A DNA stretch of 64,000 nt from Gigantopelta aegis (Eukaryota > Mollusca > Gastropoda > Neomphalida > Peltospiridae), in the NCBI RefSeq assembly GCF_016097555.1, contig NC_054701.1, forward strand, positions 1,712,091 through 1,776,090. The letters are read 5' to 3'. The notes beneath the pieces were generated by a model. It was not told the origin of the DNA. It was given only the letters and a program-made list of their open reading frames with translations, and did not search any database. Below are positions 1 through 63,412 of this stretch, piece by piece; position 1 is the first letter of the stretch; each line of letters begins with the position of its first letter. The translations under genes and the position numbers were made by a program.

Positions 1-153
1 GAAGCCGAGTGTGGTAAATCTGTTGACAAACTGCATGTGTGTGTTTTGTTTTCTCAGATTGCCATCAAGAACTGCATGTGTGTGTTTTGTGTTCTCAGAG
101 CCGAGTCTGGTAATTCTGTTAACAAACTGCATGTGTGTGTTTTGTTTTCTCAG
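1..153 (+). repeat. Tandem duplication of an intron 3' end including the splice acceptor
   Basis: The stretch holds three related copies of an intron end ending in TTTTCTCAG or GTTCTCAG (AG near 57, 98 and 153). The first copy is followed by the same first codons as the real exon (ATTGCCATCAAGAAC at 58), so part of the AP-beta exon start was duplicated with the acceptor. The last acceptor, at 151-153, opens the long exon frame. Confidence 0.75.
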
Positions 154-3100
154 ATTGCCATCAAGAACAACATCAGCGTGTTCTACTTCAGCGTGACGAT
201 TCCGATGCACGTGCTGTTTGTCGAGGATGGCGAGATGGACAAGAAAGAGTTCCTGGCCACGTGGAAGGAAATCCCGTCCACCAACGAAGTCCAGTACACC
301 ATCAACAACGTTCAGCACAATGCAGGTAGGACTCACTCCAGGTTATATACTCGAATGCCAAGCATTCCTGTGTTGTGATAAAATCAGTCAAATACAAGTA
401 TAAATGCCAGTGGTGCATCTACATCGTATGAAACTGGTCATATGCATGCATACTTGTGGAATAGTGTTCCATACCCAGGGAAATATCTCGCAGTCATCTT
501 GCCTCATACGGTCTGGAGATTGTGCGACCATGGCAACACATGCACTTAGTTCTAGTTCAGTGTTGTGCTAGCAGTCATAAGGTCTGGACATCATGCTGGT
601 CATGGCAACACATGCACTTAGTTCTAGTTCAGTGTTGTGCTAGCAGTCACAAGGTCTGGACATCGTGCTGGCCATGGCAACACATGCACTTAGTTTTAGT
701 TCAGTGTTGTGCTAGTAGTCACAAGGTCTGGACATCGTGCTGGTCATGGCAACACATGCACTTTGTTCTAGTTCAGTGTTGTGCTAGCGGTCATAAGGTC
801 TGGACATCGTGCTGGCCATGGCAACACATGCACTTAGTTCTAGTTCAGTGTTGTGCTAGTAGTCACAAGGTCTGGACATCGTGCTGGTCATGGCAACACA
901 TGCACTTTGTTCTAGTTCAGTGTTGTGCTAGCGGTCATAAGGTCTGGACATCGTGCTGGTCATGGCAACACATGCACTTTGTTCTAGTTCAGTGTTGTGC
1001 TAGCAGTCATAAGGTCAGGAGATCGTGCTGGCCATGGCAACACATGCACTTAGTTCTAGTTCAGTGTTGTGCTAGCAGTCATAAGGGATAATATGGTAAT
1101 GCAGTCGAAAAGAAAATGTGTTTTTGACAATGATGTGATTGGCTATATAACAAAAACTAAACACAAATTTGCCACCAAAATGTGTTGATTTACAGATGGC
1201 TGAATTCTAAATTTGGTGAATGTCTTCTTAAACCTGAATGTTGCATGCAAGCCACCATCAAACCACATGGTTGCATTCTGTTCATGTTACTTATGAATCA
1301 GTTTGAAACTATTTGTCAAGTAAATAAAATTTTCTTTGAAAACGTTGATGTCACAGGAACTTTTGGTGTCGAGTATAATTTCTGCATCTTGTAAATATAT
1401 TCCATCAATGTCATTTTGTCAGCTTTTCATCTCATTTAAGCTTTTTTTTTCATTTTTTTTTTTTTTTTCTTTTTGCATAAAATAATGTTGTCAAAGTAGA
1501 CTTTGTGTAATTATAACGTATTGTTTTCAGTGGGTTTTTTTAAAGATAATTTCAGATCAGTTAAGTCAGTACCATATCCCCGATTTATTTAAAATGAATA
1601 TTTCCATCTTCTAAGGGGGTGGGATGTCGCCCGCTGATAAAACGCTTGCTTGATGCATGGTTGGGCTATTTCTCGTTCCAACCAGTGCACCACGACTAGT
1701 ATATCAAAGGCTGTGGTATGTACTATCCTGTCTGGGATAGTGCATATAAAAGATCCCTTGCTAATGGAAAAATGTAGAGGGTTTCTTCTCTAAGACTGTA
1801 TGTCAGAATTACGAAATGTTTGACATCCAATAGCCGATGATTAATACATCAATGTGCTCTAGTGGTGTCGTTCAACAAAACTAACTTCTTTTTTTCATCT
1901 TCTAAGATACTACATTTTGTAATCACTATATAAGTGCCAGAGATTTCAAAGATCTAGGTATATATTGTAACTTTGTATTCACTATATAAGTGCCAGAGAT
2001 TTCAAAGATCTAGGTATATATTGTAACTTTGTAATCACTATATAAGTGCCAGAGATTTCTAAGATCTAGGTATATATTGTAACTTTGTAATCACTATATA
2101 AGTGCCAGAGATTTCTAAGATCTCTGTATATATTGTAACTTTGTAATCACTATATAAGTGCCAGAGATTTCTAAGATCTCTGTATATATTGTAACTTTGT
2201 AATCACTATATAAGTGCCAGAGATTTCTAAGATCTAGGATATATTGTAACTTTGTAATCACTATATAAGTGCCAGAGATTTCTAAGATCTAGGATATATT
2301 GTAACTTTGTAATCACTATATAAGTGCCAGAGATTTCTAAGATCTAGGTATATATTGTAACTTTGTAATCACTATATAAGTGCCAGAGATTTCTAAGATC
2401 TCTGTATATATTGTAACTTTGTAATCACTATATAAGTGCCAGAGATTTCTAAGATCTCTGTATATATTGTAACTTTGTAATCACTATATAAGTGCCAGAG
2501 ATTTCTAAGATCTAGGATATATTGTAACTTTGTAATCACTATATAAGTGCCAGAGATTTCTAAGATCTAGGATATATTGTAACTTTGTAATCACTATATA
2601 AGTGCCAGAGATTTCTAAGATCTAGGATATATTGTAACTTTGTAATCACTATATAAGTGCCAGAGATTTCTAAGATCTCTGTATATATATTGTAACCACA
2701 GTTTATAAACACAGTGCTTGTCAAGAAGCTTTACACTTTTTGTTACTGAATAATTTATATTTTCTTCATTTCATTTTCAGATACAGTTTCACAGAAACTA
2801 AAGAACAGCAATATTTTCACAATTGCCAAGCGTAATGTGGAGGGCCAGGACATGCTGTACCAGTCTCTCAAACTGTCCAATGGTATCAAGGTTCTGGCAG
2901 AACTCAAGATACAGCCAGGAAACCCAAGCTTCACGGTCAGTGGCTCTTTAATGTGGACACTTTTAATATAGTAGTAATCAGTTTTTCACTTGATGCTATA
3001 GGGGCGAGACGTAGCTCGATGCGCGGTCGGTCTGGGATCGATCCCTGTCGGTGGACCCATTAGTCTATTTCTCGTTCCAGCCAGTGCACCACGACTGGTA

Positions 3101-3732: not shown

Positions 3733-3911
3733 TCTTAGATGAGATACCAAATGGTTAACTTTGGTCAGAGAAATACTACTAGTAAACTGAAGGAAAAGAC
3801 TGCTATTAAACAGATTGAACAGTGCATGATAGTGATAAAATAGGTGTTGAGAAAATAAAACTAAAGACTGCTTTGTCAAGTTTGGCAAGATCATCTACCT
3901 GAGAGGAAGAA

Positions 3912-5437: not shown

Positions 5438-5454
5438 TTCTTACTTGCATAAAA

Positions 5455-5745: not shown

Positions 5746-5975
5746 TTCTTACTTGCATACAGTCTGAATTATGATGGTAAATTTATTGTTAACAACTAGT
5801 ATTGGCTAACAAAAACACAAATAATGAGTGTTCAATATTTTAATTGCAGTAATAACACTGTTTTGACTTCGGTAATCCACAATAATTAATAATCTGTAAA
5901 GTTCTAGGATCAGGTATTAAAATCAACCATTTCCCTTGTAATCTCATGAAGACAAGATGTCCATAAAGTCAGTAG

Positions 5976-6764: not shown

Positions 6765-7434
6765 ATCAGAAGTGGCAGCAGATGCAATGTAACCTCAGAG
6801 CTAAACACCACCCCTTTTTTACCAGTCATGTTAAATTTAGTACAGGTACAACAAACAAATCAAACAGCTGGGGGAGGGAGAGGTGGAGATGAAAAGAGAA
6901 GAAACCAGAAGAAAGAAAACTAGTTTGACAGACATTTTATTCAATAAATAATCTACTACAGACAGACAACCATGATATGTAATTCACATTCATATTTACA
7001 AAAAAAATACATAGAATTCTGTTGGAATAAACAACAGCTTTACAAATATTTTATGAGAAAATACAGCAATACAAATAAATTCATTGTTGGTAATATAAAT
7101 AATACACAGGTAAATGACAATCATCAGAGGTAGTTGTGTATCAATAACAGTGAAAAGACATTTTATATATTTAAAAAAAAAAAAAAAAGTGAGACAAATG
7201 TTTACTAATTATCTTCAAGACTTGCTCCTAGGTAACTACTGGCACCGTACAACTTGGTACAAGATATCAGACTGTCAAATGATATGTGAATCGATGCAGA
7301 GGATAGATTTATATCAATATATACATTTCTATTTCATTTAATATGCAATTACATTTAAACCAATCTAAACTGATCCAGCCATCTGCAAAGTCTGGCAATA
7401 TCTGTAAAACTATAACCAACTGCACGGTCTGTGA

Positions 7435-7565
7435 AATCGGTAACTACTGAACTACAGGCAGTTCATTCAAATCTGTCAAATTGGTAACTACTGAACTACA
7501 GGCAGTTCATTCAAATCTGTCAAATCGGTAACTACTGAACTACAGGCAGTTCATTCAAATCTGGA
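7435..7565 (+). repeat. 44-bp tandem repeat overlapping the NDH-2 stop codon
   Basis: The motif CAGTTCATTCAAATCTG recurs at about 44-bp spacing (TCATTC at 7463, 7507 and 7551). The copy at 7551 contains the real NDH-2 stop and last codons; the others lie in the 3' UTR. Confidence 0.85.
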
Positions 7566-9855: not shown

Positions 9856-9886
<31 letters not shown>

Positions 9887-15800: not shown

Positions 15801-18745
15801 TATCATAAAGGCTCAAGCTTAATACAACGTGTTTTTGTAAACTGTACACGCAATTTTAATTCCAGTCTGCCATTACTAGATATTCAAATGACGTAAGAAT
15901 ATGTGGCGCGGTGTATTTTTGAATGGAAATGACATCAAACTCGAATGTCGTAATTTTTGATGTCCTTACATCAAAATAAAGTTATGCCTAACGTTTTTTG
16001 TTTTCTGAATGCTGGACAGCTTTCAGTGTCAAATTGCCATTGAAATTTTTTTATTTGATGACTATGAATGCATACGTCAATCATGGAGTGTCACCCAAGT
16101 ACGTTTGCTTAAATGTCAATAAACCTAGTGCCAAGACCTCGACTAATTTACATCTAATTTGCAAAGTTATCAAATTCTTAAAGTATGTGATCTGAAAAAT
16201 ATCACATACTTTGATTGCACTGAAAATGTAAGATATTACATGATAAATTTAATTATTTTTCAAAATATATGTCACGTCCTGGTTGATTTGACATATAAAA
16301 GTTAATTTTATTTAAAAACCATTTATCAGAAATAATAATCCTTTTTAATTCTCCTTCTTCTCAATGTTCCAGGTATAAATAAAAGGTATAATGATGACTG
16401 GTTGTATTAAATGATTAAAATAACCACCTCAAACTTTGAGCCAGGACGTGACATTCAAGATGGCATGTTAAATTGAGTAAAGATTAAAAATGTATTAAAT
16501 CTCTCTATATAGAGAAATTGGCAAAACTGACTAGATAATGCACCATCAAGAATCGGAAACAGAGAAACTTGACGTTCAGGGGAGCATGTTCAAATATTTA
16601 ACATGAATTTATCTACTAATGTATTTAATATCCACATCATAAATAACCCTGGTATATATCAAAGCATGCATTACATGTGTAAAAATGCACAGAGAGAGGA
16701 AATAAATTATCTCCCTTGTTTTTATAAATATTTAACCTGACCTCTTACTATAGTGCATTTCTCTCCACAAATATGGTGGTGGTGGTGAGTTTCTCCTCTA
16801 ACACTCTGGACTATGTGTCACAATTACTACAGCATGATACCTAGCAGGACAGGTAAGAGTGGGTGGATATTGCCCTCCAAAAATGCTCTTTTTTCTGTAA
16901 TGTCACAATAAATAGTACATTCTTATAAAGTATAAAGAAATGTTTTATTTAACGACGCACTCAACACATTTTATTTACGGTTATATGGCGTCAGACATAT
17001 AGTTGAGGACCACACAGAGTTTGAGAGGAAACCCACTGTCGCCACTACATGGGCTACTCTTTCCAATTAGCAGCAAGGGATCTTTTATTTGCGCTTCCAA
17101 CAGGCAGGATAGCACAAACCATGGCCTTTGTTGAACCAGTTATGGATCACTGGTCGGTGCAAGTGGTTTACACCTACCCATTGAGCCTTGCAGAACACTC
17201 ACTCAGGGTTTGGAGTCGGTATCCGGATTAAAAATCCCATGCCTCGACTGGGATCCAAACCCAGTACCTACCAGCCTGTAGACCGATGGCCTAACCACAA
17301 CACCACCGAGGCCGGTATATAAAGTATAAAGTTATGTTGTTACAGCAGCAAATAAATGACATTAAAAATCACCACCTGTTCCACAAAATCGTACACTTCA
17401 GCTCCAAATTCTATACCAGTCGGACCCCCACCAACAATAACAATATGTAAGAGCCGATTTGCCTCCGATTCTTCAATTCGAGGCTGAACAGCCAATTCAA
17501 TATTGTGTAGAAGACGATTCCGAATTCTTCTGGCATCAGCCACTTCCTGTAAAATAAACAAAAAATCTTTCTTAATATACAAAGTATTTACTGAAATAAT
17601 TAATTTTGAAATATGTTATTTTCTCTAAAACATATGATATTATATTAATAAGCTAGCAGTTTTTTACATTCAGCCCACTTGTGCCGTGGTGCCAGACAAA
17701 CATACATGTATATTCTTTCTTCTGGAATGTGTCTTACAATTCTATACTTTTAAGACAAAATATGGAAGCTTGAAGTCTATGTGTAATACCTTCAAAAAGA
17801 AAGCATGTTCCGAGACTCCAGGAACCCCGAATGTATTGCTGAGAGAACCGACTCCGATCACCAGCTTGTCGTAGCTCAGTGTGTACCGCAGACTTTGTTT
17901 GAGAACGCTCTCACACACCAACGTCTTCTCTTCCGTGTCCAGGCCAACAGCTCGAGACAGATGAAAGTGGGCAGACTGCCGGAACCCAGAGTTTCTCACT
18001 GGCTCGATGATAGATCTACAAAAAAAGAATTTAAAAATACAAATCAAACCTACATGTAGTTCAATGAGAGAGAATTTGGACTATGTTTGTCGAAACTATC
18101 ATAGATCTATAAAGACTATAAAGTGGAATTTGAAAATACAAATCAAAGCTATGTCTGTGAAAGAATTTGGACTGTGCAAGTCCAAACTATGATAGAGGAA
18201 TTTGAAAATAAAACTCAAGTCTATGTTAATGATAAAGAATTTGGACTGTTAATATGATGTTGATTCTGGTGTTATTACTTGTACCTTGACTTTGTAAAAA
18301 TATCCAGCGCACAAACAAATGGAATAAAAGCTTCTGCTAAAGAAAACAAAACCCCAAAATCCACAACTAGACGGCCAGTCTTCAGGTTATAATAATATAA
18401 TAAACAAAACTCGAGTACAAATTCAATAAATTAAACACTTGGTCATCAATGATATATGAGTACTAATTACCTGAATTCAAGAGTTCCGACTGTGGTACTG
18501 CAGAGTAACGGTGTGAACAGGAAGTGGTTTCGAGGACTCACAACGATGACATCATAGATAGTTTTGTCAATCGTTTTCAACACGCTGTAACTACTCCAGC
18601 CAGTTCCGAGAATAATCAGCTGTTTACGGCCACTTTTAACACTGCTGTGTTGAGCTCTTGAATGACCACAGCACTGTATGAAATAGGAAAACAAATTCCT
18701 TTTCACACACTTCAGCATATTGCTAGTACAAGCATTTGATGCCAT
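7551..18745 (-). CDS. ndh2: Type II NADH:ubiquinone oxidoreductase (NDH-2), mitochondrial
   Basis: Single-polypeptide flavoenzyme that passes electrons from NADH to quinone at the inner mitochondrial membrane without pumping protons, bypassing complex I. Eight exons: 18745-18471, 18015-17790, 17546-17376, 14943-14784, 11140-11010, 10150-10028, 8378-8228 and 7681-7551. All have GT-AG sites, phases agree, and the product is 455 residues. The N-terminus is basic and targeting-like. Motifs are GTGWSS (about 47-52, FAD-binding Rossmann fold), NHFLFTPLL (74-82), [13 protein letters not shown] (205-217, NAD-binding Rossmann), FAIGDCAD (344-351) and a C-terminal amphipathic segment ending FGRDISRFE (membrane anchor in this family). 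AIFM-type proteins also have two Rossmann folds, but the C-terminal [15 protein letters not shown] is NDH-2-like. No EF-hand is present. It lies downstream of ADAT2 on the same strand, 307 bp away. Confidence 0.93.
8784..9965. mobile_element. Non-autonomous hAT element, 1.18 kb, in an NDH-2 intron
   Basis: The ends CAGGGGTGGGGAAAA (left) and TTTTCCCCACCCCTG (right) are exact inverted repeats. The 8-bp direct repeat CACTGTAC flanks it at 8776-8783 and 9966-9973, and both features are typical of hAT. Subterminal GGTCCCACTT and AAGTGGGACC are also inverted. I see no transposase inside. It lies between NDH-2 exons 6 and 7. Confidence 0.9.
10753..10860. mobile_element. Short foldback MITE-like element
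   Basis: Left arm GGGCCTGTATTTATAAAACA and AGTCTTGACTCA pair with right-arm AGTCTAGACTCAAAATGTTT and a GGGGC end. The whole is about 108 bp. The family is not identified. Confidence 0.55.
11141..12650. other. NDH-2 intron 4 (part), no recognisable feature
   Basis: AT-rich, with a repeated CTGCAAGAGATGTC near 12080-12140 and no open frame that looks coding. I cannot name any element here. Confidence 0.4.
12795..13290 (+). pseudogene. Broken THAP-domain coding segment
   Basis: The frame from ATG at 12795 reads [12 protein letters not shown], then FSLHAFPSN, the start of a THAP zinc-binding DNA-binding domain, though the first Cys of the C2CH set is Arg here. It stops at TGA 12916 after about 40 codons. 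Further THAP-like pieces follow in shifted frames ([20 protein letters not shown] near 12957; [17 protein letters not shown] near 13106). So there are at least one stop and two frameshifts. Confidence 0.6.
13538..13910 (+). repeat. 186-bp tandem duplication
   Basis: ATAAGTTATTTATTTCTGAG recurs at 13538 and 13724, and both copies run to CTTAAAATTA with few differences. TAGTCCGTCCCATCC near 13310 is inverted relative to GGATGGGACGGACTA in the copies, so the region is also partly palindromic. Confidence 0.8.
15425..15680 (+). repeat. 43-bp tandem repeat, about 6 copies
   Basis: The unit is CATATCATAATTAGTATATA, then GAGGTTATTACCAGAGTGTTTTA. The last copy runs straight into the foldback element that follows, so the unit contains that element's outer end. 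Confidence 0.88.
15640..15805. mobile_element. Foldback element with about 33-bp arms
   Basis: Left arm 15685-15719 (CGGTATCGTCAATATC, then TAGGAATAAAAAT) pairs with right arm 15744-15775 (ATTTTTATTCCTAATATA, then GACGATACCG). Outer TTATTACC and GGTAATAA also pair. It is probably a MITE. Confidence 0.65.
16938..17317 (-). mobile_element. Full-length SINE, minus orientation, with 14-bp target duplication
   Basis: Read on the minus strand it starts with a tRNA-like head (GGCCTCGGTGGTGTTGTGG, B-box-like GGGTTTGGATCCCAGTC), then a central part and the GTCGTTAAATAAAACATTT tail. The 14-bp repeat TATAAAGTATAAAG flanks it at 16924-16937 and 17318-17331. The head differs from that of the plus-strand SINEs, so this is a second subfamily with the same tail. 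Confidence 0.9.
18000..18250 (+). repeat. Diverged tandem triplication at the NDH-2 exon 2 acceptor
   Basis: Segments around ATGATAGATCTACA, GAATTTAAAAATACAAATCA and GAATTTGGACTA recur three times, at about 18007, 18097 and 18188. The first copy contains the NDH-2 exon 2 acceptor and its first coding bases (18015). Copies have drifted, so this is older than the other arrays. Confidence 0.6.
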
Positions 18746-19031: not shown

Positions 19032-19586
<555 letters not shown>

Positions 19587-25165: not shown

Positions 25166-28100
25166 ACTCATCCCAGTATTCGAATCAAAGGTGCCGAGAA
25201 CAACTACACGCCAACTATTTGTTCCGATCCAGAATGCTCAACAAAGATACCACATATGCACTGCCCCTTTTGTGTGAAAACCGATTTCTACCAGGACCCT
25301 GTTATCTTGAAAGCCCACTATAGGGTGAAACATGTTGATAAGGGAATTGAGTTTGCAGGTAAGACATTATTGATTCACCTTCTGAATGCATTTGAGTCAG
25401 TTAATCTGTGGAAAAGCTACAATTTTCAGTTCCATTAAGTAGAACGTACTTGCTTGTACTATATAGAGGCTATTTCATGGGGTTTTTCGAATACGATTTT
25501 TATGTCAACGGATGGTGTGTGAAAACCATATTTTCACGAATTGCGAAGCAATGAGTGAAAATATGGTTTTCACACACCACTCATTGACATAAAAATCGTA
25601 TTCGGAAAAACACCATGAAATGGTCTATTTATTATATACATATTTCCTAATTTTTTACAATATCTTTCGCTTTTTGGTATTATCTTTCGCTTATCCTATC
25701 GAAAACACATAACGTCATGATATATTTCTTCCTATGGAACTTTGCCAGAAAATTTACTTTACCATAGACTTTTAAAAGAAATTTGATTAAAATTTATCTT
25801 TATTAACATTTATTTAACAATACTGCAGTGCAAACATACTTGACAAAGCGATCCTCTAAAAACTCCCACAAAAACAAAACGAGTCGAATGCCGTTAAATT
25901 CTTACACTTACACTTGATGACACTGCATTGTGTCATCATTATTTAGCTTCGTATTCAATTCGTTTCTGATATTTTATCATTATTGCACTTCGTGTCCCTT
26001 TTTTATAGGTACAGTTGTTTAAATTACATTTTTTATTTTTCAAATACGATCAGATGCATTGGTAATCATAAAATTTAAATACGAAGAACCGAGACAAAGG
26101 GAGATAACTTAATCATGCACTTTTACAAAAAAGTAAATACGACTTCTATATTTTCACTGTAGCTAAAATACTTTTCACCGGATGTGACTTTTATGGTTTC
26201 CGTAGATCTATATATTTCATTGCTATGTATGTAATAAATGTAAATATTGTGTTAACTTGGCTACTGTATTTATAATGTGTTTTTTGTGTGCAGCTCTAAA
26301 AATTCTGCGCTGTTGTGACCACTGCGACATTGTTGGAATTATCAAAGGGGAGAAGAAGTTCAAGGGAGCTCACTGGCACTGCTACAAGTGTCGGAATGGC
26401 TTTAACCGACGCGATGAGGCTTTAAAACACTACAGAACGCATTTCAGAAATCCTCAAACAACGTTTCAGATACAGATTGCTCAGGTAAATGCTTTTAATA
26501 TAGGAAACACAATGTACATCCTAAGAAACGGTTCTAAATAAATTTTAGATCTCGTCTTGAGGAAAGATCGAGGGGACTAATTAATTGTAAATCTCCTTTC
26601 CTTGAACTAATCTCAGGGAGTGATGGGGAGCGGAAGTGATATCTCACCTTAAACAGCGAGGTTTGATTTTAACCAGTGGTAGTTAACTGGTATATCAAAG
26701 AATATGGTATGTGCTTACTTGTCTTTGGGAAAATGCATATAACAGATATTTTTTGCCAAGAGGTAGAAGTAGCCTTCATAGTAAAAACTGTTTTCCTCAT
26801 CAGCAATTGTTACAACATGTTACTGGTAGCCTTAGTTTAAAACATGGTCAGGTGTCATTACAAATATCCTTTGTGTATGAAGTGTGAGGATGCATTAATA
26901 AATAAAGCTGTTGAATGAGAGAGCAGCAAGTGTAATCCATACTAATATTATATAGCATGATATAAATTGTTTAACTGGTGAGCACTTAACAGTACTTCAA
27001 GTCTTTATTGTAGCTGTATCTAACCATAGATGCAACATAAAATAAAAGGTTGATAATGAAGCAGTTGGTTATAGCTTTAAGTGTCATCTTTTCATCATTT
27101 TCCATGATAAGAATTTGTGATTTGGTTTCAGGATGTGACTCAGTCTGTTACGGATGATGTGGAGAACCATGACGCCACGACAAACATTCAGGATGAGGGG
27201 GTCATACACCCGGTACTCACCGAGGCTGCTTGCCTGGCGTCCCCAGATCAAGGTCAGTGTAAAGCAAATTCTGTAGTGACTTAGTTTCCACCGCTACCAT
27301 TAAAATAGTATATCATTGTTCTGTTGCATTCCCAGAGCTCACTCTGCCCATTGCTAAATTAGCTAATTGCCAGTTTTTATACAAAGTGGCTGAATTTTCA
27401 AACAAACATCTCACATATCTGAAAACTTGTTTCTGAAAACTTGCTCAAACAAATTTCTTTCCAGTGTGACCCCAGTAATTAAAATGTCCATGGCAAAAAA
27501 CATGTCATTGAAAAGAACCCTGAATATAGTCCATTGCCAAAAAGTGCTGTGGAAAATTACAAACTCCATGGTATTACCAGTTGCCGTGGACAATTGCAGG
27601 GATTGTTTCCTACAGGTCTGTTATCCTATAATACAAACTAAATGATAGATGACCAAGTGTGATTTGACTGGTTGTTGTTGTTGCAGTGTGTGGGGAGGAG
27701 TCCGAGTACAGTGACAAGGTGATGTCTGATGGGGGTTTCCAAGTGTCGATCGCGGCCAACGAGACGATCAACACGGCCGACGGCCAGACAATCATGATCA
27801 TCTCGGAGGAGCACCTGGAGACTGCGCGGCTCGACAGTCCACTGGATGTGCACATCGTCACGCAGAGCAAACACAGCAGCGGTGAGGAGGTGGGTAGTTT
27901 GAACACAGCGGCAGTGGGGAGGTGGGTAGTTCAAACACAGCGGCAGTGAGGAGGTGGTTAGTTCAAACACGGAAGGTGGGTATTAAACATGGCGGAGGTG
28001 GGTAGTTCAAGCACAGTGGAGGTGGGTAGTTCAAACAGCGGTGGTGGGTAGTCCAAACACAGCGGCAGTGGGGAGGTGGGTAGTCCAAACAGCGGTGGTG

Positions 28101-31100
28101 GGGAGGTGGGTAGTCCAAACACAGGGGAGGTGGGTAGTCCAAACACAGTGGCGGTGGGGATGTGGGCAGATAAATGTTGAAACACTGAGATGGGTTACAA
28201 CTTGACCAGCTGCAATACAGAGAGCTGCACTCATTGAGGCTCCACAGAATCGGTTTCTTCTGGCCATTTATACAGTAATACAACCAAAAAACTAAAATAT
28301 TGCCTAAAATGCTGGCTCAGGTTATATTGGACCTATTTAATTTTAAGGATAGCCTTGAAGTATTAACAAATTCCACAGAATTAAAGGTCTAGCCAACAAT
28401 ACATTTTTTTTTTTTAATTCAAGGTGTAAAATTTATGATAGTTTTAAATATTTAATAAATAAAAAAAGAAAACATGATTTTTTAAAATCTGCTATAAAAC
28501 TTAGATGAACAGTTGGTACACATTTTGATACAACTAATGAAAAGAATTCAATGTAGACCTAAATTAAAAAATTTGACCATCACCATTGGAATAGTAACAC
28601 CTATTTATCACCTTTGATTTTGTTGAATCCAGACAGAAATCATCCTGTATTATATCATATACAATTGTCACCAAATTGACGTCAGTCAGTATGTATTACT
28701 ACTCAGTACAGTTGTCTTTATCATAATGTGTGGACCATCTCTTCGTAACGTTAATTTGTGGTTACTTGGTGTGTTCCTGTTTTCAGGAGAAAGATGACAA
28801 GATCTGTGGTAAGAAGTATGAAGTGCTTGAAGATCATTGCAGTAAACTGGAAAAGGACAATGCTGCTTTACTGGCAGAAGTTGAGAGGCTCAAACTTCAG
28901 GTACGGAATTGTGTGTGGTTGGTAGTGGGGCTAAGGAATTGTGTGGGGTTGGTAGTGGGGATAAGGAATTGTGGGGTTGGTAGTGGGGATAAGGAATTGT
29001 GTGGGGTTGGTAGTGGGGGTAAGGAATTGTGGGGTTGGTAGTGGGGCTAAGGAATTGTGTGGAGTTGGTAGTGGGGATAAGGAATTGTGGGGTTGGTAGT
29101 GGGGCTAAGGAATTGTGTGGGGTTGGTAGTGGGGATAAGGAATTGTGGGTTGGTAGTGGGGATAAGGAATTGTGGGGTTGGTAGTGGGGATAAGGAATTG
29201 TGGGGTTGGTAGTGGGGATAAGGAATTGTGTGGGGTTGGTAGTGGGGATAAGGAATTGTGTGGGGTGGGGCTAAGGAATTGTGTGTGGTTGGTAGTGGGG
29301 CTAAGGAATTGTGTGGGGTTGGTAGTGGGGATAAGGAATTGTGGGGTTGGTAGTGGGGATAAGGAATTGTGGGGTTGGTAGTGGGGATAAGGAATTGTGT
29401 GGGGTTGGTAGTGGGGGTAAGGAATTGTGGGGTTGGTAGTGGGGATAAGGAATTGTGTGGGGTTGGTAGTGGGGGTAAGGAATTGTGTGGGGTTGGTAGT
29501 GGGGGTAAGGAATTGTGTGTGGTTGGTAGTGGGGGTAAGGAATTGTGTGTGGTTGGTAGTGGGGTAAGGAATTGTGGGGATAAGGAATTGTGTGGGGTTG
29601 GTAGTGGGGTTAAGGAATTGTGTGTGGTTGGTAGTGGGGCTAAGGAATTGTGTGGGGTTGGTAGTGGGGATAAGGAATTGTGTGGGGTTGGTAGTGGGGA
29701 TAAGGAATTGTGTGGTTGGTAGTGGGGATAAGGAATTGTGTGGGGTTGGTAGTGGGGATAAGGAATTGTGTGGGGTTGGTAGTGGGGGTAAGGAATTGTG
29801 TGGGGTTGGTAGTGGGGATAAGGAATTGTGTGGGGTTGGTAGTGGGGATAAGGAATTGTGTGGGGTTGGTAGTGGGGATAAGGAATTGTGTGTGGCTAAG
29901 GAATTGTGTGTGGCTAAGGAATTGTGTGGGGTTGGTAGTGGGGCTAAGGAATTGTGTGTGGTTGGTAGTGGGGATAAGGAATTGTGTGTGGTTGGTAGTG
30001 GGGCTAAGGAATTGTGTGGGGTTGGTAGTGGGGGTAAGGAATTGTGTGTGGTTGGTAGTGGGGATAAGGAATTGTGTGGGGTTGGTAGTGGGGATAAGGA
30101 ATTGTGTGGGGTGGGGCTAAGGAATTGTGTGTGGTTGGTAGTGGGGATAAGGAATTGTGTGTGGTTGGTAGTGGTAGTGTGGGGTTGGTAGTGGGGATAA
30201 GGAATTGTGTGGGGTTGGTAGTGGGGCTAAGGAATTGTGTGGGGTTGGTAGTGGGGCTAAGGAATTGTGTGGGGTTGGTAGTGGGGATAAGGAATTGTGT
30301 GGGGTTGGTAGTGGGGGTAAGGAATTGTGTGGGGTTGGTAGTGGGGCTAAGGAATTGTGGGGTTGGTAGTGGGGGTAAGGAATTGTGTGGGGTTGGTAGT
30401 GGGGCTAAGGAATTGTGTGGTAGTGAGGGTAAGGAATTGGTAGTGGGGGTAAGGAATTGTGTGGGGTTGGTAGTGGGGGTAAGGAATTGTGTGGGGTTGG
30501 TAGTGGGGGTAAGGAATTGTGTGGGGTTGGTAGTGGGGGTAAGGAATTGTGTGGGGCTAAGGAATTGTGTGTGGTTGGTAGTGGGGCTAAGGAATTGTGG
30601 GGGTTTGGTAGTGGGGGTAAGGAATTGTGTGGGGTTGGTAGTGGGGCTAAGGAATTGTGGGGTTGGTTGCGGGGGTAAGGAATTTGTGGGGTTGGTAGTG
30701 AGGGTAAGGAATTGTGGGGTTGGTAGTGGGGGTAAGGAATTGTGTGGGGTTGGTAGTGGGGGTAAGGAATTGTGTGGGGTTGGTAGTGGGGGTACGGAAT
30801 TGTGGGGTTGGTAGTGGGGGTACGGAATTGTGTGGGGTTGGTAGTGGGGGTAAGGAATTGTGTGGGGTTGGTAGTGGGGGTACGGAATTGTGTGGGGTTG
30901 ATAACGGAGGGGTGTTGGGGTATGGGATTTTAGATTAATAAAAATCAAAACCTAAACTTCACATAAAAAAATCTCTTGGAATTGCATTAAAATTAGAATT
31001 AGCAATTTATAACTATAATTATATTTTACAGCTGGCATTATTTTTATATTAATAGATAATATTTACCATAAACATATCAACTTTTTATCTATTTGTTTTT

Positions 31101-47281: not shown

Positions 47282-50200
47282 TCAGTGTGGTACGTCAATA
47301 ATAAGATCAGTGTCCTCTTCCTCAGCACCTATAATGTCGCTCATACTGAAACAAAACAATTTTAGACATTAACATACTAAGTATTTTTAACTCTGTCACG
47401 TATAACTATTTAATTTTTAGTGTGTACTTGTTAATAACTCCTTTGAATGTAAATTGTGTTATTGCCAATTCATGTATTAAAATAAAAGTATGTTACATGT
47501 TAAGAAATCCAATAATTTGTAGATACATTATGAGCGAAACTTAAATGTATTTCTTAAGAAAAGTTAGTTTTTTCACTTTATATTTAATTTATTTTGTTTA
47601 CACCACTTAGAACATACTGTTGCCATCCTCAAATCAAATGAATGAATGAATGTTTAACGACATCCCAGCATGAAAAATACATCGGCTAATCAAAACCCAA
47701 AATGGAAACCCAAGAAGCAAAAACATACGGGTAATAATTTGGACTGGACTGAGAATGCTTTCATGCAATTTCTACTTTCATGTTTTATTTTCTTCTTTAA
47801 AGATATACTTGGGCTAAAATCTGTTTAAAAAAAAAAAAAAATAGGTGAGAAATTGACATTAAATTTTCAATTATTTTGTCTTGATATTGCGGTGTCATCC
47901 AACATTCAGTTGTAAATCAAATTAATTCACCTGTCTGGGTTAGAGTTGTCGTTGCTGAAGATTTCCATCGGTAGAAGTGTTGGAGTTTTCTCAATTCCAA
48001 AAGAATGTTGTCGTGACTCTAGGTGTCGCTCCAGCTCCTCCCTTGTCATCTGCCCTCCAGGGTTCCCACTGTCACCCCCCGACTTGTGACCTGTAACAAC
48101 AATCAAGTTATTTATCTGACCAGTTGTTTATCTGTCCCCCGGGGTTACCACTGTCAGCACCCCCCACCCCCAACGTGTGACCTGTAACAACAATAAAGTT
48201 ATTTATCTGTCACCACCCCCACCCCCTGATTTGTATCTTGTAACAACAATCAAGTTATTTATCTGTCCCCAGGGGTTACCACTGTCACCACCCCCACCCT
48301 CGACTTGTGACCTGTAACAAAAATCAAGTTATTTATCTGTCCCCAGGGGTTACCACTGTCACCACCACCCACCCCCGACTTGTGACCTGTAACAACAATC
48401 AAGTTATTTATCTGTCCCCAGGGGTTACCACTGTCACCACCCCCACCCTCGACTTGTGACCTGTAACAACAATCAAGTTATTTATCTGTCACCACCCCCA
48501 CCCCACCCCGACTTGTGACCTGTAACAACAATCAAGTTATTTATCTGTCACCACCCCTCCGACTTGTGACCTGTAACAACAATCAAGTTATTTATCTGTC
48601 ACCACCCCCACCCCACCCCGACTTGTGACCTGTAACAACAATCAAGTTATTTATCTGTCACCACCCCCACCCCACCCCGACTTGTGACTTGTAACAACAA
48701 TCAAGTTATTTATCTGTCACCACCCCCACCCCACCCCGACTTGTGACCTGTAACAACAATCAAGCTATTTATCTGCCCCCATGGTTACCACTGTCACCAC
48801 CCCCACCCCTGATTTGTGACCTGTAACAACAATCAAGTTATTTATCTGTCACCACCACCCCCCCCCACCCCCTGACTTGTGACTTGTAACAACAATCAAG
48901 TTATTTATCTGTCACCACCCCTCCTACTTGTGACCTGTAACAACAATCAAGTTATTTATCTGTCACCACCCCTCCTACTTGTGACCTGTAACAACAATCA
49001 AGTTATTTATCTGTCACCCCCCCCACCCCCCACCCCAACTTGTGACTTGTAACAACAATCAAGTTATTTATCTGTCACCACCCCTCCGACTTTTGACTTG
49101 CAACAACAATCAAGTTATTTATCTGCCCCCATGGTTACCACTGTCACCACCACCCACCCCCGACTTGTGACCTGTAACAACAATCAAGTTATTTATCTGT
49201 CACCACCCCCATCCCACCCCGACATGTGACTTGTAACAACAATCAAGTTATTTATCTGCCCCCAGGGTTACCACTGTCACCACCACCCACCCCCGACTTG
49301 TGACCTGTAACAACAATCAAGTTATTTATCTGTCACCACCCCCACCCCACCCTGACTTGTGACTTGTAACAACAATCAAGTTATTTATCTGTCACCACCC
49401 CTCCGACTTGTGACAACAATCAAGTTATTTATCTGTCACCACCCCCACCCCGACTTGTGACTTGTAACAACAATCAAGTTATTTATCTGTCACCACCCCC
49501 ACCCCACCCCGACATGTGACTTGTAACAACAATCAAGTTATTTATTTGTCACCACACCCACCCCACCCCGACATGTGACTTGTAACAACAATCAAGTTAT
49601 TTATCTGCCCCCAGGGTTACCACTGTCACCACCCCCACCTCCGACTTGTGACCTGTAACAACAATCAAGTTATTTATTTGTCACCACCCCCACCCCACCC
49701 CGACTTGTGACAACAATCAAGTTATTTATCTGTCACCACCCCCACCCCACCCCGACTTGTGACCTGTAACAACAATCAAGTTATTTATCTGTCACCACCC
49801 CTCCGACTTGTGACCTGTAACAACAATCAAGTTATTTATCTGCCCCCAGGGTTACCATTGTCACCACCCCCACCCCTGACTTGTCACCTGTAACAACAAT
49901 CAAGTTATTTATCTGTCACCACCCCCACCCCACCCCGACTTGTGACTTGTGACAACAATCAAGTTATTTATCTGTCACCACCCCCACCCCACCCTGACTT
50001 GTGACTTGTAATAACAATCAAGTTACTTATCTGCCCCCAGGGTTACCACTGTCACCACACCACCCGACTTGTGACCTGTAACAACAATCAAGTTGTTTAT
50101 CGGACCCCAGGGAAAGAATGTCACACCAAGAAGGTACTGACCAACTTTTATTTGTTACTCAAATTTTATTAAACAGGTCTGCAAGTGTGTGCGTGTGTGT

Positions 50201-55862: not shown

Positions 55863-55979
55863 TTCTTGTCCAGAATCTTCAAAACCTTTCATTCTGTTAC
55901 CTGTCATTTTTATCTTTACTTGATTATTAGTTTGATTTGTATATAATTTGCGTTTAGTAAAGATAATTATTTTGTTCAG

Positions 55980-58900
55980 ATGGGTGCCAAAGTGAACCCA
56001 AAGCCGAAGCGGAAGAAGGTGAGGAAGCCGCAGGTGGCGGCGAAGAAGACGACTCCCAAACTGATGATGGAGAAAGAGATCGGCGGAGATAAGAACGGAG
56101 GCAAACGATTAGTCCGCATCAAACGGCTGGTAAACTTTGAAACTTGTACTCTTGTCTTGTAGGTCACCTGGCGTGTGACCGGCCTTTAAAAGCTCTAACA
56201 GAATTTGATTTTGATCAGCTGAATTAATGGATAACCTTTTTTTAAAATCTAATTGAATGTTTTACTGAACCTTATTTTAGAATTTATTTTTTGTTATATT
56301 TAAAGAAAAATTACATAGTATCCAGGGCTTTAGATCTCACTAAGTTGGACACGACAGGAAGTTGTCTTTTTTGAGCGCAGGAAGGTCGTTTTAGCTCAGT
56401 AGTCATTAACAGCTGATGGAGAGTTGTCAGCATTCAAAATTGCATTTAAAGTTATTTTAATGTAATTAAACGTAACATTTCAGTGGTTTTGAGGTGAATA
56501 TTTTGATGTAATTAAACGAAACATTTCAGTGGTTTTGAGGTGAATATTTTGATGTAATTAAACGAAACATTTCAGTGGTTTTGAGGTGAATATTTTGATG
56601 TAATTAAACGTAACATTTCAGTGGGCTTGAGGTGAATATTTTAATGTAATTAAACGAAACATTTCAGTGGGCTTGAGGTGAATATTTTAATGTAATTAAA
56701 CGAAACATTTCAGTGGGTTTGAGGTGAATATTTTGATGTAATTAAACGAAACATTTCAGTGGTTTTGAGGTGAATATTTTGATGTAATTAAACGTAACAT
56801 TTCAGTGGTTTTGAGGTGAATATTTTGATGTTTGTACTAAATTTGGGCGTGATTATTTTGGGCACAACGTTTATCAACTTGACTTTGTAATTTTAATAGG
56901 TCATTGTATTTTTATTTTAAATTTTCATATTGTTGATAGTATTGTTCTTGTGTTAATTGTTGTATTTTTGTCTATTTCAGCCCAGGTTTTACCCGACAGA
57001 AGACAAACCCCGTAAACTGAAGTCCCGCAAGAAGCCGTTCAGCAAACATCATCACAAACTGCGATCATCCATAACTCCCGGAACCATCGTCATCATCGTG
57101 GCAGGCAGACACAAGGGGAAGGTGGGTATCGCTCGTTCTGTAGCGCTGTCATTATTAGTTTCCTACCGGTCCAGGCAGACACGAGGGGAAGGTGGGTGTC
57201 GCTCGTTCTGTGGCGCTGTCATTATTAGTTCACTACTGGTCCAGGCAGACACAAGGGGAAGGTGGGTGTCGCTCGTTCTGTCATTATTAGTCCCGTACTG
57301 GTTCAGGCAGACACACGGGGAAGGTGGGTGTCGCTTGTTCTGTGGTGCTGTCATATTAGTCCCCTACTGGTTCAGGCAGACACAAGGGGAAGGTGGGTGT
57401 CGCTCGTTCTGTGGTGCTGTCATATTAGTCCCCTACCGGTTCAGGCAGACACAAGGGGAAGGTGGGTGTCGCTCGTTCTGTGGTGCTGTCATTATTAGTC
57501 CTTACTGGTTCAGGCAGACACAAGGGGAAGGTGGGTGTCGCTCGTTCTGTGGTGCTGTCATTAGTTCCCTACCGGTCCAGGCAGACACAAGGGGAAGGTG
57601 GGTGTCGCTCGTTCTGTGGTGCTGTCATTAGTTCCCTACCAGTTCAGGCAGACACAAGGGGAAGGTGGGTGTCGCTCGTTCTGTGGTGCTGTCATTAGTT
57701 CCCTACCAGTTCAGGCAGACACAAGGGGAAGGTGGGTGTCGCTCGTTCTGTGGTGCTGTCATTATTAGTTCCCTACCGGTTCAGGCAGACACAAGGGGAA
57801 GGTGGGTGTTGCTCATTCTGTGGTGCTGTCATTATTAGTCCCCTACCGGTTCAGGCAGACACTAGGGGAAGGTGGGTATTGCTCGTTCTGTGGTGCTGTC
57901 ATTATTAGTTCACTACCGGTCAAGGCAGACACAAGGGGAAGGTGGGTGTCGCTCGTTCTGTGGTGCTGTCATATTAGTCCCCTACCGGTTCAGGCAGACA
58001 CTAGGGGAAGGTGGGTATCGCTCGTTCTGTGGTGCTGTCATTATTAGTTCACTACCGGTCCAGGCAGACACTAGGGGAAAGTGGGTATCGCTCGTTCTGT
58101 GGTGCTGTCATTATTAGTTCACTACCGGTTCAGGCAGACACAAGGGGAAGGTGGGTGTCGCTCGTTCTGTGGTGCTGTCATTATTAGTTAACTACCGGTT
58201 CAGGCAGACACAAGGGGAAGGTGGGTGTCGCTCATTCTGTGGTGCTGTCATTATTAGTTAACTACCGGTCCAGGCAGACACAAGGGGAAGGTGGGTGTCG
58301 CTCGTTCTGTGGTGCTGTTATATTAGTCCCCTACCGGTTCAAGCAGACACTAGGGGAAGGTGGGTATCGCTCGTTCTGTGGTGCTGTCATTATTAGTCCA
58401 TTACCGGTCCCAGGCTGACACAAAGGGAAGGTGGGTGTCGCTCGTTCTGTGGTGCTGTCATTATTAGTCCATTACCGGTCCCAGGCTGACACAAGGGGAA
58501 GGTGGATGTCGCTCGTTCTGTGGTGCTGTCATTATTAGTTCCCTACCGGTTCAGGCAGACACAAGGGGAAGGTGGGTGTCGCTCATTCTGTGGTGCTGTC
58601 ATTATTAGTCCCCTACCGGTTCAGGCAGACACTAGGGGAAGGTGGGTATCGCTCGTTCTGTGGTGCTGTCATTATTAGTTCACTACCGGTCAAGGCAGAC
58701 ACAAGGGGAAGGTGGGTGTCGCTCGTTCTGTGGTGCTGTCATATTAGTCCCCTACCGGTTCAGGCAGACACTAGGGGAAGGTAGGTATCGCTCGTTCTGT
58801 GGTGCTGTCATTATTAGTTCACTACCGGTCCAGGCAGACACTAGGGGAAAGTGGGTATCGCTCGTTCTGTGGTGCTGTCATTATTAGTTCACTACCGGTT

Positions 58901-61900
58901 CAGGCAGACACAAGGGGAAGGTGGGTGTCGCTCGTTCTGTGGTGCTGTCATTATTAGTTAACTACCGGTTCAGGCAGACACAAGGGGAAGGTGGGTGTCG
59001 CTCATTCTGTGGTGCTGTCATTATTAGTTAACTACCGGTCCAGGCAGACACAAGGGGAAGGTGGGTGTCGCTCGTTCTGTGGTGCTGTTATATTAGTCCC
59101 CTACCGGTTCAAGCAGACACTAGGGGAAGGTGGGTATCGCTCGTTCTGTGGTGCTGTCATTATTAGTCCATTACCGGTCCCAGGCTGACACAAAGGGAAG
59201 GTGGGTGTCGCTCGTTCTGTGGTGCTGTCATTATTAGTCCATTACCGGTCCCAGGCTGACACAAGGGGAAGGTGGGTGTCGCTCGTTCTGTGGTGCTGTC
59301 ATTATTAGTTCACTACCGGTCAAGGCAGACACAAGGGGAAGGTGGGTGTCGCTCGTTCTGTGGTGCTGTTATATTAGTCCCCTACCGGTTCAAGCAGACA
59401 CTAGGGGAAGGTGGGTATCGCTCGTTCTGTGGTGCTGTCATTATTAGTCCATTACCGGTCCCAGGCTGACACAAAGGGAAGGTGGGTGTCGCTCGTTCTG
59501 TGGTGCTGTCATTATTAGTCCATTACCGGTCCCAGGCTGACACAAGGGGAAGGTGGGTGTCGCTCGTTCTGTGGTGCTGTCATATTAGTCCCCTACCGGT
59601 TCAGGCAGACACTAGGGGAAGGTGGGTATCGCTCGTTCTGTGGTGCTGTCATTATTAGTTCACTACCGGTCAAGGCAGACACAAGGGGAAGGTGGGTGTC
59701 GCTCGTTCTGTGGTGCTGTCATTATTAGTTCACTACCGGTCAAGGCAGACACTAGGGGAAGGTGGGTATCGCTCGTTCTGTGGTGCTGTCATTATTAGTC
59801 CATTACCGGTCCCAGGCTGACACAAGGGGAAGGTGGGTGTCGCTCGTTCTGTGGTGCTGTCATTATTAGTTCACTACCGGTCAAGGCTGACACAAGGGGA
59901 AGGTGGGTGTCGCTCGTTCTGTGGTGCTGTCATTATTAGTTCACTACCGGTCAAGGCTGACACAAGGGGAAGGTGGGTGTCGCTCGTTCTGTGGTGCTGT
60001 CATTATTAGTCCATTACCGGTCCCAGGCTGACACAAGGAGAAGGTGGGTGTCGCTCGTTCTGTTATGCTGTCATTATTAGTCCATTACCGGTCCCAGGCT
60101 GACACAAGGCAGAGTATGACAAATATTTTGAAAAGTCACTAGCCACAGGGCTAGTGGGTTTGTGAAAACCACTAGCCCACCAAGATAAAGCACTAGCCCA
60201 AATTCCTGATCAATTATAACTGGATTTTTATATAATTTTTGTAACATTACATATTTACGAGTATAACAGTAAAATAAAACAAACACTTAAATCATGTTGT
60301 AACTTTCAGTTTTTTGTCGTGTCGTACGTTTTGTCTTTTGTCAAGTGTGATCCATCGTCATTGTCCCGTTTTTGTTTTTGCTCCCCCCCGGGAAAATTAA
60401 TTGAGCAAACTCTTGGTTGGTATCTAAAAACACTATCAAAATAATTAAATTTAAATGAGGGTACGACAGTGTCGCCAGGAACGGTGATGCCAAATACAGG
60501 GCATTATCCCGTGTCAGACCGATATGAAAAGAATATAACGGCGACATCTAATCCGTTTAGGTATTATCTTGTATTGGCAGCTGTGACGTTTTATCCAAAC
60601 CGCTACACGTAATAGGCCAAGCCGAGTCATTGCATATGCGGTTACCATTAAAGTAAATTGTTTTCCTGATTGCCGATAACCACATGTTAGCGAAGTGTTA
60701 AATTAAAAAAACAATAGGTAAATAAAACAAACACTGAAATTCAAAGCATGGCTGGGGTTTACTTGATTGAGATTAACATGTCGTCGCGATTGATGATTTC
60801 CAAGTTCTTAGCCTAAAACATGTGCGCGATTAACGACCACGTGACGTGTCTAACCAATCAAAACACGCATGTCATTAGACTTTATTTCCTGTGCCAGAAA
60901 CTTGAAAGGGAAAGGTAAACAATGCATGCTGTAACTGTGACGATGTAGAGATAGCATGTTACTGCAGTTTGCAGACCTAGCTCAAGTGGATTATTATTAT
61001 ATACTCATTGCGTTGTTGATATTATTCGATGACAAACGTCACAATCAAATTTATTAAACGAAATTTCAGCCGAGAGAAAAAGAATGAAAGAAAACAAAAA
61101 ACCCACGATCGAGCGATGACGAGGGGGGAAACCACTAGCCCGCAGGGGCTAGTGGTTTTGCGTTTCTCACTAGCCCGAACTTAAAAACCACTAGCCACGG
61201 GCGTCGGGCTAGCGGATTTGTCGAACTCTGACACAAGGGGAAGGTGGGTGTCGCTCGTTCTGTGGTGCTGTCATTATTAGTTCCCTACCGGTTCAGGCAG
61301 ACACAAGGGGAAGGTTAGTTCCCTACCGGTTCAGGCACTCTGACACAAGGGGAAGGTGGGTGTCGCTCGTTCTGTGGTGCTGTCATTATTAGTTCCCTAC
61401 CGGTCCAGGCAGACACTAGGGGAAGGTGGGTATCTCTCGTTCTGTGGTGCTGTCATTATTAGTTCCCTACTGGTCCAGGCAGACACTAGGGGAAGGTGGG
61501 TATCTCTCGTTCTGTGGTGCTGTCATTATTAGTTCCCTACCGGTTCAGGCAGACACAAGGGGAAGGTGGGTGTCGCTCATTCTGTGGTGCTGTCATTATT
61601 AGTTCACTACCGGTCCAGGCAGACACTAGGGGAATGTGGGTATCTCTCGTTCTGTGGTGCTGTCATTATTAGTTTACTACCGGTTCAGGCAGACACTAGG
61701 GGAAGGTGGGTATCGCTCGTTCTGTGGTGCTGTCATTATTAGTTCCCTACCGGTTCAGGCAGACACAAGGGGAAGGTGGGTGTCGCTCATTCTGTGGTGC
61801 TGTCATTATTAGTTCACTACCGGTCCAGGCAGACACTAGGGGAATGTGGGTATCTCTGGTTCTGTGGTGCTGTCATTATTAGTTTACTACCGGTCCAGGC

Positions 61901-63412
61901 AGACACTAGGGGAAGGTGGGTATCTCTCGTTCTGTGGTGCTGTCATTATTAGTTCCGTACCGGTCCAGGCAGACACTAGGGGAAGGTGGGTATCGCTCAT
62001 TCTGTGGTGCTGTCGTATTAGTTCCCTACCGGTCACAAGACACGAAGGGGGTATTCTTTTTATCATCCATTATCATTCTTTTCATTTGCGACAGTTGTAA
62101 ACAGTGTCAGTAATAACTCTGCATTTTACTGGCTGCTGACTTTTCAAAGTTGAAATATCACAAAACTTAGCTAAGAACAGAAGTGTTTTGTAATGTCATG
62201 AGTATTATTTTTAAAAGGTCAAGATGAAGATTTTTTTAAATTAGGCTTTATCACTACACTAGTTTCATAAACATCTTAAATTACACACCTATGCTAGAAT
62301 TACTAACAATTCAGCCACCCGGCTCGTGTTATTGAAATATTTAACAGGCTTTCTGCCAGTGTACGTAATAAAAACAGAAAACCTCGGTTCTTTACTCAAG
62401 TGGATTCATTGATTAGGTGCAAACATCATCTGCATCAACATACATTTGTAAAGTTCCGTTGTATTTTTAGTGGAATCATTTATAAACCAACCTGAAGCTG
62501 ACCTGATTTTACAACAGTTTTCAAATAAAACTTTGTGTAATACCTTTTTTCCTTTTTTTGCAGAGGGTTGTATTTCTGAAACAGTTGAAAACAGGACTTT
62601 TGCTTGTCACAGGTATATCAGTAAAATGGGAACATCTAAATTAAAACGCACCACTCACCCGTCAGAATGTACCAGTGTTGAACGTTTTTACCACTTTAGT
62701 TGATCTTATAGTGTATTTTGCACATAACCACTGAAACAATATAAAAAAATATAGAAAAACACTAAAAGATCATTTTAATCAACGTGTAATACTGTGACTT
62801 TTTAATGTTGAGTATAAGCATGCTACATGTTGGACTGGTCATTATGGTTGTTTTACGAGTCGTGGGATGGTGTTGACAATATAGATCTTAGGACAGTGTG
62901 CATCACTTTCAACATCCCATCATCCTCCGCTGGGTTTACATCTCCGTGGTTATTTTGTGACATCAACTAGGAATAAACATTTTAAGAGGTTGGATTTCCT
63001 TTGGGCTCTACTAAATGGATCACATGTCCAACTCTTTATCGCTTGCTTTTGTTCCAGAATACGAGTTTGGAACCTGTTATTAAATTGAAATATTTCCAGA
63101 GTCATTCTTTCTGTTTTGTATTTAAACAATAACCACCAAATTGTTTAAATATTAAGTCTTTTCTTTGACTTGATATATATTTAGAATAATTTTTCCAACT
63201 ATTTAATCTGAGTGTTTGTTCTTGCAGGACCATTCCACTTGAATGGCTGTCCTCTGCGGAGAATAAACCAGCGCTATGTGATAGCTACCCGCACTCGTCT
63301 CGACATCAAGGGCCTCAAACTGCCAGAGAGACTGAATGACGATTATTTCCGCAGAAAGAAGCTTCGCAGACCAAAACACACAGAAGGTGAAATCTTCGAT
63401 ACAAAGAAAGAG
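55980..63412 (+). CDS. RPL6: 60S ribosomal protein L6 (eL6), 3' partial
   Basis: Component of the large cytosolic ribosomal subunit. Coding exons 55980-56129, 56981-57121, 62564-62612 and 63228-63412 join in phase to give 175 residues; the last part (human KYEITEQRK... onward) lies beyond the window. After the basic N-terminus come [69 protein letters not shown] and [12 protein letters not shown], which follow human RPL6 closely. The ATG sits right after the acceptor at 55977-55979, so a separate 5' UTR exon must exist upstream. Intron 2 (57122-62563) is 5.4 kb and almost wholly tandem array, unusually long for a ribosomal protein gene, and carries a hAT element. Confidence 0.95.
56453..56830 (+). 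repeat. 46-bp minisatellite, about 8 copies, RPL6 intron 1
   Basis: TGTAATTAAACGAAACATTT plus CAGTGGTTTTGAGGTGAATA and TTTTGA recurs from 56461 every 46 bp. It ends about 150 bp before exon 2. Confidence 0.93.
57101..60101 (+). repeat. Minisatellite grown from the RPL6 exon 2 donor, about 43 copies (left block)
   Basis: The exon 2 end GGCAGACACAAGGGGAAG plus donor GTGGGTATCGCTCG is the first unit (57103). Later units repeat GGCAGACACAAGGGGAAGGT, GGGTGTCGCTCGTTCTGTGG, TGCTGTCATTATTAGTTC and CCTACCGGTTCA at about 68-70 bp. Thus 18 coding bases and the real donor are carried in every unit. A 770-bp block is duplicated (CTAGGGGAAAGTGGG at 58071 and 58841). Confidence 0.96.
60110..61230. mobile_element. 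Non-autonomous hAT element, 1.12 kb, inside the RPL6 array
   Basis: Ends CAGAGTATGACAAAT (left) and ATTTGTCGAACTCTG (right) are near-inverted. The 8-bp direct repeat ACACAAGG at 60102-60109 and 61231-61238 is part of an array unit, so the element landed in the array. Both subterminal regions hold several CTAGCCC/GGGCTAG sites in both orientations. No transposase is seen. Confidence 0.92.
61231..62035 (+). repeat. RPL6 donor-derived minisatellite, right block, about 11 copies
   Basis: Continues the array after the hAT insertion with the same unit; variants GGGTATCTCTCGTTCTGTGG and GGGGAATGTGGG recur here. It ends with a degraded GGTCACAAGACACGAAGGGG. Confidence 0.95.

Follow-up and report, generated by a model that had tools for sequence, protein, structure and literature searches.

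Tandem arrays with units spanning splice junctions of five genes in a 64-kb genomic window, and their likeness to amphioxus mirages

Across the 64-kilobase (kb) stretch of Gigantopelta aegis contig NC_054701.1 analysed here (positions 1,712,091 to 1,776,090 of the forward strand; ‘the window’), we find tandem arrays whose repeat unit covers a modelled splice site together with some of the adjoining exon, and whose copies extend from there into the intron. As an earlier reading of the same DNA, made from sequence only, had proposed, such arrays involve both donors and acceptors (three of each) on both strands, here in a total of five genes. That reading placed six junctions inside repeat units: five of these stand, with 9 to 43 exonic nucleotides (nt) within the unit, but the sixth, the donor of zinc-finger exon 5 at 28900, is only abutted, by an array that includes 1 nt of exon. 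The arrays are a new instance of an anatomy already known from the ‘mirages’ of amphioxus, as described in published passages on several genes (PMC3087553, PMC3902484); the remark that no such system had been described therefore falls. We consider it probable that they are mirage-type minisatellites: duplications with random breakpoints, tolerated since the splice site in the copy next to the exon remains usable.

Arrays and gene models at the junctions

Tandem arrays were called with Tandem Repeats Finder (TRF) and overlapping rows scoring at least 100 were merged, giving 20 intervals that make up 36.8% of the window, with periods between 26 and 185 base pairs (bp); as two of these have a common RPL6 unit, they represent 19 independent arrays. 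Five multi-exon genes were modelled—AP-beta, NDH-2, a zinc-finger-like gene, an INO80E-like gene and RPL6—where the names ‘zinc-finger’ and ‘INO80E’ are ones we presume, following the earlier reader's labels. All 45 junctions are GT-AG and the coding sequences stay in frame across their joins; each of the four models that reach a 3′ end has a single terminal stop, with RPL6 extending past its last modelled exon. The models may nevertheless be incomplete, with further exons or genes possible beyond those given here. The features at the junctions are as follows, a solidus marking the exon–intron border.

3..182, + strand: AP-beta array, 96-bp unit, 1.9 copies (TRF), containing the acceptor 153/154
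154..325, + strand: AP-beta exon adjoining the array (PDB alignment, frame, GT-AG)
7428..7563, − strand: NDH-2 stop-codon array, 44-bp unit, 3.1 copies (TRF)
17790..18015, − strand: NDH-2 exon 2, acceptor at 18015 (PDB alignment, model)
18007..18247, − strand: old, diverged array with partial copies and a period of about 91–99 bp, at the acceptor of NDH-2 exon 2
27687..27889, + strand: zinc-finger exon 4 (fourth modelled), donor GAG/GTGGGT (frame and GT-AG only)
27868..28166, + strand: exon 4 donor array, 32-bp unit (TRF)
28787..28900, + strand: zinc-finger exon 5 (fifth modelled), donor CAG/GTACGG (frame and GT-AG only)
28900..30900, + strand: exon 5 donor array, 30-bp unit, about 70 copies (TRF)
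47931..48090, − strand: INO80E-like exon (third modelled), acceptor TTACAG/GTCACAAG (frame and GT-AG only)
48046..50105, − strand: INO80E array, units of about 51, 59 or 74 bp (TRF)
56981..57121, + strand: RPL6 exon 2, donor AAG/GTGGGT (PDB alignment)
57102..60109, + strand: RPL6 array, first part, 70-bp unit, about 43 copies (TRF)
61225..62034, + strand: RPL6 array, second part, same 70-bp unit, 10 to 12 copies (TRF)

For three of the genes, the models are supported by alignment to solved structures: AP-beta exons 1 and 2 match AP-2 beta chains with no gap where the two exons meet, the join of NDH-2 exons 1 and 2 gives a continuous alignment to a solved NDH-2, and the PDB alignment is likewise continuous across RPL6 exons 2 and 3. 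At the AP-beta acceptor itself the preceding exon lies outside the window, and the alignment begins with the first residue past the acceptor; the array, too, starts at the window's first positions and may extend outside it. The third AP-beta exon starts at 3658, behind an ACAG acceptor. The borders of the zinc-finger gene rest on frame and splice consensus, its one Pfam match being sub-threshold, while for INO80E a Pfam search gave no match and a PDB search only a chance-level one (E value 8).

Beginning with the donors, RPL6 exon 2 ends in ...CACAAGGGGAAG/GTGGGT at 57121 and the 70-bp unit begins 20 nt within the exon; the intron runs from 57122 to 62563, of which the two parts of the array occupy only a portion, about 1.1 kb of other sequence (60110–61224) separating them. 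At the donor of zinc-finger exon 4 the 32-bp unit takes in the last 22 exonic nt; at that of exon 5 the 30-bp array begins at the border. Turning to the acceptors, the INO80E site at 48090 and the next 43 exonic nt align, apart from a single 9-nt gap, to the whole 74-bp unit, the copies extending upstream of the acceptor to approximately 50105. Within this array, full 74-bp units are mixed with shorter ones that lack a stretch flanked by ACAG/GCAG, as if the flanked stretch had been deleted via short homology. At the AP-beta acceptor, 15 exonic nt are repeated in two copies, with a cross-border copy score of 103. The NDH-2 acceptor at 18015 was picked up by a scan of all junctions, its array being undetected by TRF: the cross-border alignment scores 47 and includes 9 exonic nt, and a score of at least 44 is reached at 1.3% of 1500 random positions, a null that overstates the contrast because it was drawn without array positions.

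The same behaviour is seen at a border of another kind, unrelated to splicing; the NDH-2 stop codon (7551–7553), which the sequence-only reading had correctly put inside an array, lies with the 10 preceding coding nt in the 44-bp unit, the copies following downstream. That reading had also stressed that the authentic splice site always stays outermost. The copies are indeed intronic, but this provides no separate clue: use of any copy other than the one continuous with the exon body would change the mRNA, and so in a working gene all other copies would be intronic by definition.

Junction overlap and the origin of the arrays

We compared the overlap with a null in which each array is reduced to one unit and placed at random, excluding positions that fall wholly in an exon or over two junctions. 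For the whole window, 1.30 junction arrays are expected out of 19 and five are observed (P = 0.0072); for gene bodies the expectation is 1.46 out of 13, again with five observed (P = 0.0094). Requiring at least 10 exonic nt leaves four arrays, where 1.10 (window) or 1.23 (gene bodies) are expected (P = 0.020 and 0.026), and adding the old NDH-2 array gives six, where the expectation is 1.40 of 20 or 1.63 of 14 (P = 0.0017 and 0.0027). Counted from the side of the junctions, with at least 4 exonic nt, a nearby cross-border copy is present at 5 of the 45, compared to 1.8 expected (P = 0.035), the null here being random non-array positions with one unit per array added back. The overlap is approximately three- to fourfold above random placement, a modest excess; the statistics are post hoc, coming from one window that also prompted the hypothesis, and the expected count would rise with any unmodelled exons. 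The earlier contention that chance overlap is too low to explain the arrays finds some support in the basic count, and less in the stricter ones.

One could argue that nothing more than chance is at work: with many arrays and many introns some will overlap, and the window was noticed for it. Such an explanation denies only the excess and is compatible with the tolerance part of our own. It can point to the 1.1 to 1.6 junction arrays that placement without any preference should yield, to strict counts that reach only P = 0.02–0.035, and to a hypothesis born from the very data it is measured on, in which unmodelled exons would lift the expectation; yet five arrays were observed (P = 0.007–0.009) and the pattern recurs in several published amphioxus genes, such that we see pure chance as possible but not likely. 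A quite different proposal is that the spliceosome, or reverse splicing, creates duplications that start at splice sites, in line with the earlier suggestion of a process favouring such starts. Whilst the exon 5 array does begin no more than 1 nt from its donor, the remaining units include 9 to 43 nt of exon. Expressed as the share of the unit that is exonic, the six cases (AP-beta, 0.16; exon 4, 0.69; exon 5, 0.03; INO80E, 0.58; RPL6, 0.29; NDH-2, 0.10) show no departure from a uniform distribution (Kolmogorov–Smirnov p = 0.27; n = 6, a weak test), with an identical p whether INO80E and NDH-2 are entered as 47/74 and 10/91 or with the recounted 43 and 9 nt. Random breakpoints are expected to give shares of this kind, cutting at splice sites would give shares near zero, and we find a spliceosomal origin hardly credible.

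A third possibility is mutation targeted to the borders, in which a G-rich sense strand would form R-loops or G-quadruplexes during transcription and repair would then duplicate the sequence in tandem. Comparing the five junction arrays (the second RPL6 part not being counted again) with eight intron-only arrays, we find a higher guanine-plus-cytosine (GC) content (p = 0.008) and a higher sense-strand G skew (Mann–Whitney p = 0.023); the skew is positive in all five, ranging from 0.16 to 0.96, against an intron background of −0.01. However, the numbers are small, six of the eight intron-only arrays are also positive (one at 0.52), the values for AP-beta and RPL6 are mild (0.16 and 0.20), and the skew of a founding unit is fixed by expansion of its array. 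Targeting of this kind is in our view unlikely, and a part played by R-loops or G-quadruplexes is inferred.

We therefore return to mirage-type minisatellites as the preferred explanation. In a region this rich in arrays with units of 26–185 bp, duplications would arise at more or less random breakpoints, and where one took in part of an exon and the adjoining part of an intron the protein would be unchanged, because the exon-joined splice site would still be usable and the extra copies would fall in the intron. Exon definition (the pairing of both sites that bound a short exon) would then choose the innermost site over dozens of decoys, and unequal exchange or slippage would both expand and homogenise the array; variants common to several copies are present within the arrays, as concerted turnover predicts. 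G-rich sense-strand sequence at the borders may raise the rate at which arrays are born, and could account for the excess. Selection that tolerates arrays for as long as an intact site remains, the other option raised by the sequence-only reading, fits these findings.

Saying this, several points weigh against our explanation. The test of uniformity was made on six cases and has little power; random breakpoints alone do not account for the excess that was seen over random placement (P = 0.007 to 0.035); and the GC contrast is partly expected, because junction units contain exon. That the exon-joined copy is the one used is, moreover, a presumption of the gene models. Lastly, the variable splice-site G found in two of the arrays, described below, suggests that the decoys are not harmless everywhere.

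Decoy splice sites within the copies

In the exon 5 array, donor position +1 is by far the most variable of the 30 columns, with G in 26, A in 25, C in 17 and T in 1 of 69 copies (43 of the 69 thus carrying A, C or T for G), where the next most variable column is 83% conserved and the rest at least 94%; the 26 G, taken from aligned columns, include the authentic site, and an anchored list without it has 24 G of 69. In a simulation of neutral growth, crude and dependent on the assumed growth rule, three alleles with at least 17 copies each appear at donor +1 in no more than 1 of 1500 runs per setting; when any column is allowed, the two settings with diversities on either side of the 14 distinct variants observed give 0.4% and 1.1% of runs, and the highest setting gives 3.9%.

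Among the 55 core columns of the INO80E array (only those with letters in at least 60% of copies being ranked), it is again a splice base, the acceptor G, that varies most, with 18 G and 14 A in 32 copies and the next column at 78%. Of 34 copies detected, 32 were aligned; a motif filter dropped a fragment at 48133 and, at 48208, a genuine copy that has kept its CAG, and a pattern list that includes the latter has 14 of 33 changed. Here the change from G to A shifts the AG by one base and does not abolish it. Moreover, three of the most variable columns in this array are G with A, and a general G-to-A tendency may contribute to the variability. For the most variable column to coincide with one of the two invariant splice bases in at least two of the four multi-copy arrays has a probability of 0.013 (0.005 if only the three large arrays are taken), in an analysis that should be regarded as exploratory. 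A gradient of silencing with distance from the exon was considered and dropped, as the two arrays disagree: the exon-near half of the exon 5 array is the more silenced (27/34 vs 18/35; Fisher p = 0.022), and intact copies dominate near the exon in the INO80E array (8 of the last 10).

Elsewhere the decoys are preserved. Every RPL6 copy with letters at the site has its GT intact (43/43 in the first part, 12/12 in the second), as do 10 of 10 copies in the exon 4 array, and it might be supposed from this that extra splice sites are retained as useful, be it as reservoirs for U1 binding or as regulated alternative sites. The median column of the RPL6 and exon 4 arrays is, however, also 100% conserved, indicating no special conservation of the site, and in the exon 5 and INO80E arrays it is the splice-site G that varies most; we judge useful copies to be very improbable. 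A combined scenario, wherein arrays are born preferentially at splice borders by way of G-rich transcribed sequence, making these genuine hot spots, and decoys are then silenced copy by copy through selection, strikes us as quite doubtful. Were it true, the arrays would constitute a natural experiment on how many competing splice sites a gene tolerates.

Related systems and further arrays of the window

Potato RdRp is reportedly a case of intron gain by tandem duplication. The name ‘mirage’ is said to go back to Canestro et al. in 2002.

As described in the published passages, amphioxus mirages are minisatellite-like tandem duplications of both 5′ and 3′ intron boundaries (PMC3087553, PMC3902484), with loci that include Adh3 and the globins BflGb6 and BflGb9 (PMC3087553) as well as PGBD5 and, by citation, troponin C; two PGBD5 arrays abut a 5′ splice site (PMC3902484). 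The arrays of our window share with them units that span the end of an intron and the adjoining exon, an authentic section that stands beside its copies, duplication of both kinds of boundary, and a minisatellite type of turnover, evident here from shared variants rather than from a tree of copies. Unit lengths at the junctions (30 to about 99 bp) fall within the range reported for mirages: 10–72 bp for Adh3, 150–160 bp for the globins, and 60 and 108 bp for PGBD5. There are differences too. Copy number reaches about 70 here, whereas the two haplotypes of BflGb6 have 3 and 6; within 64 kb, six junctions of five genes are affected; and the splice-site G as the most variable column of two arrays is a feature that the amphioxus passages do not mention. 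Adh3 data and reverse-transcription PCR of the globins suggest that regular splicing is undisturbed by mirages, from which a gain of introns has also been proposed (PMC3087553); the reading frames here are intact, and regular splicing may be kept as well.

Three other systems bear comparison, in so far as the passages concerned describe them. Human segmental duplications contain internal tandem repeats at exon–intron boundaries, with units of 30 bp on average, but these alter exons or yield novel introns (PMC2812944), whereas the modelled coding sequences here are intact. Dual-specific splice sites in tandem repeats, as in UBC, likewise place splice-site motifs in a tandem array, and an intersection of introns with repeats showed an excess; in that type the repeat contains the whole intron, which measures a whole number of units (PMC10809524), whereas the introns here extend past their arrays, that of RPL6 being longer than the arrays within it. 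The Rogers model, in which introns are gained by tandem duplication of segments bearing AGGT (cited in PMC3087553), resembles our case in that the duplication includes splice-site sequence, and differs in that our arrays lie in introns separating modelled exons, with no new intron shown. Among the matches listed by literature searches, and as far as their titles and opening abstract lines go, there was no mollusc report of such arrays and none on decoy silencing.

If the pattern were repeated genome-wide, it would supply many independent cases in which dozens of near-identical splice sites compete with one real site, so that natural sequences could serve to test both how splice sites are chosen and whether introns are gained by tandem duplication as models propose; in a species that is not a lancelet, it would also make mirages a wider animal phenomenon. 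For annotation it advises caution, as gene finders may put the end of an exon in the wrong copy.

Some of the arrays confined to introns also carry splice-like motifs. In RPL6 intron 1, an array at 56453–56831 has a 46-bp unit made up of an acceptor-like CAG, some ten bases, and a donor-like GAG/GTGAAT, and resembles a repeated micro-exon. The intron that separates modelled NDH-2 exons 4 and 5 contains a 185-bp unit in two copies (13538–13910). When eight intron-only units were tested for relic splice motifs, the donor-like site of the RPL6 unit gave p = 0.013, and the NDH-2 unit was found to bear, on the strand of the gene, an acceptor-like site whose strength none of 400 random intron segments matched; the other six units gave no p below 0.05. 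With such sites in only two of the eight, we would not extend an origin at lost junctions to every array.

The window further contains an 8.7-kb array of an 83-bp unit (36724–45418) that looks by eye like the middle of an interspersed element of the short interspersed nuclear element (SINE) type; this SINE-like element recurs across the window, and one of its copies may have given rise to the array. The element has a mollusc-like look, and exact scans of genome and viral contigs for pieces of it gave no match. Just upstream of NDH-2, and on the same strand, lies a gene of one exon whose product has a cytidine deaminase domain (19053–19586; Pfam PF00383) and is presumably ADAT2.

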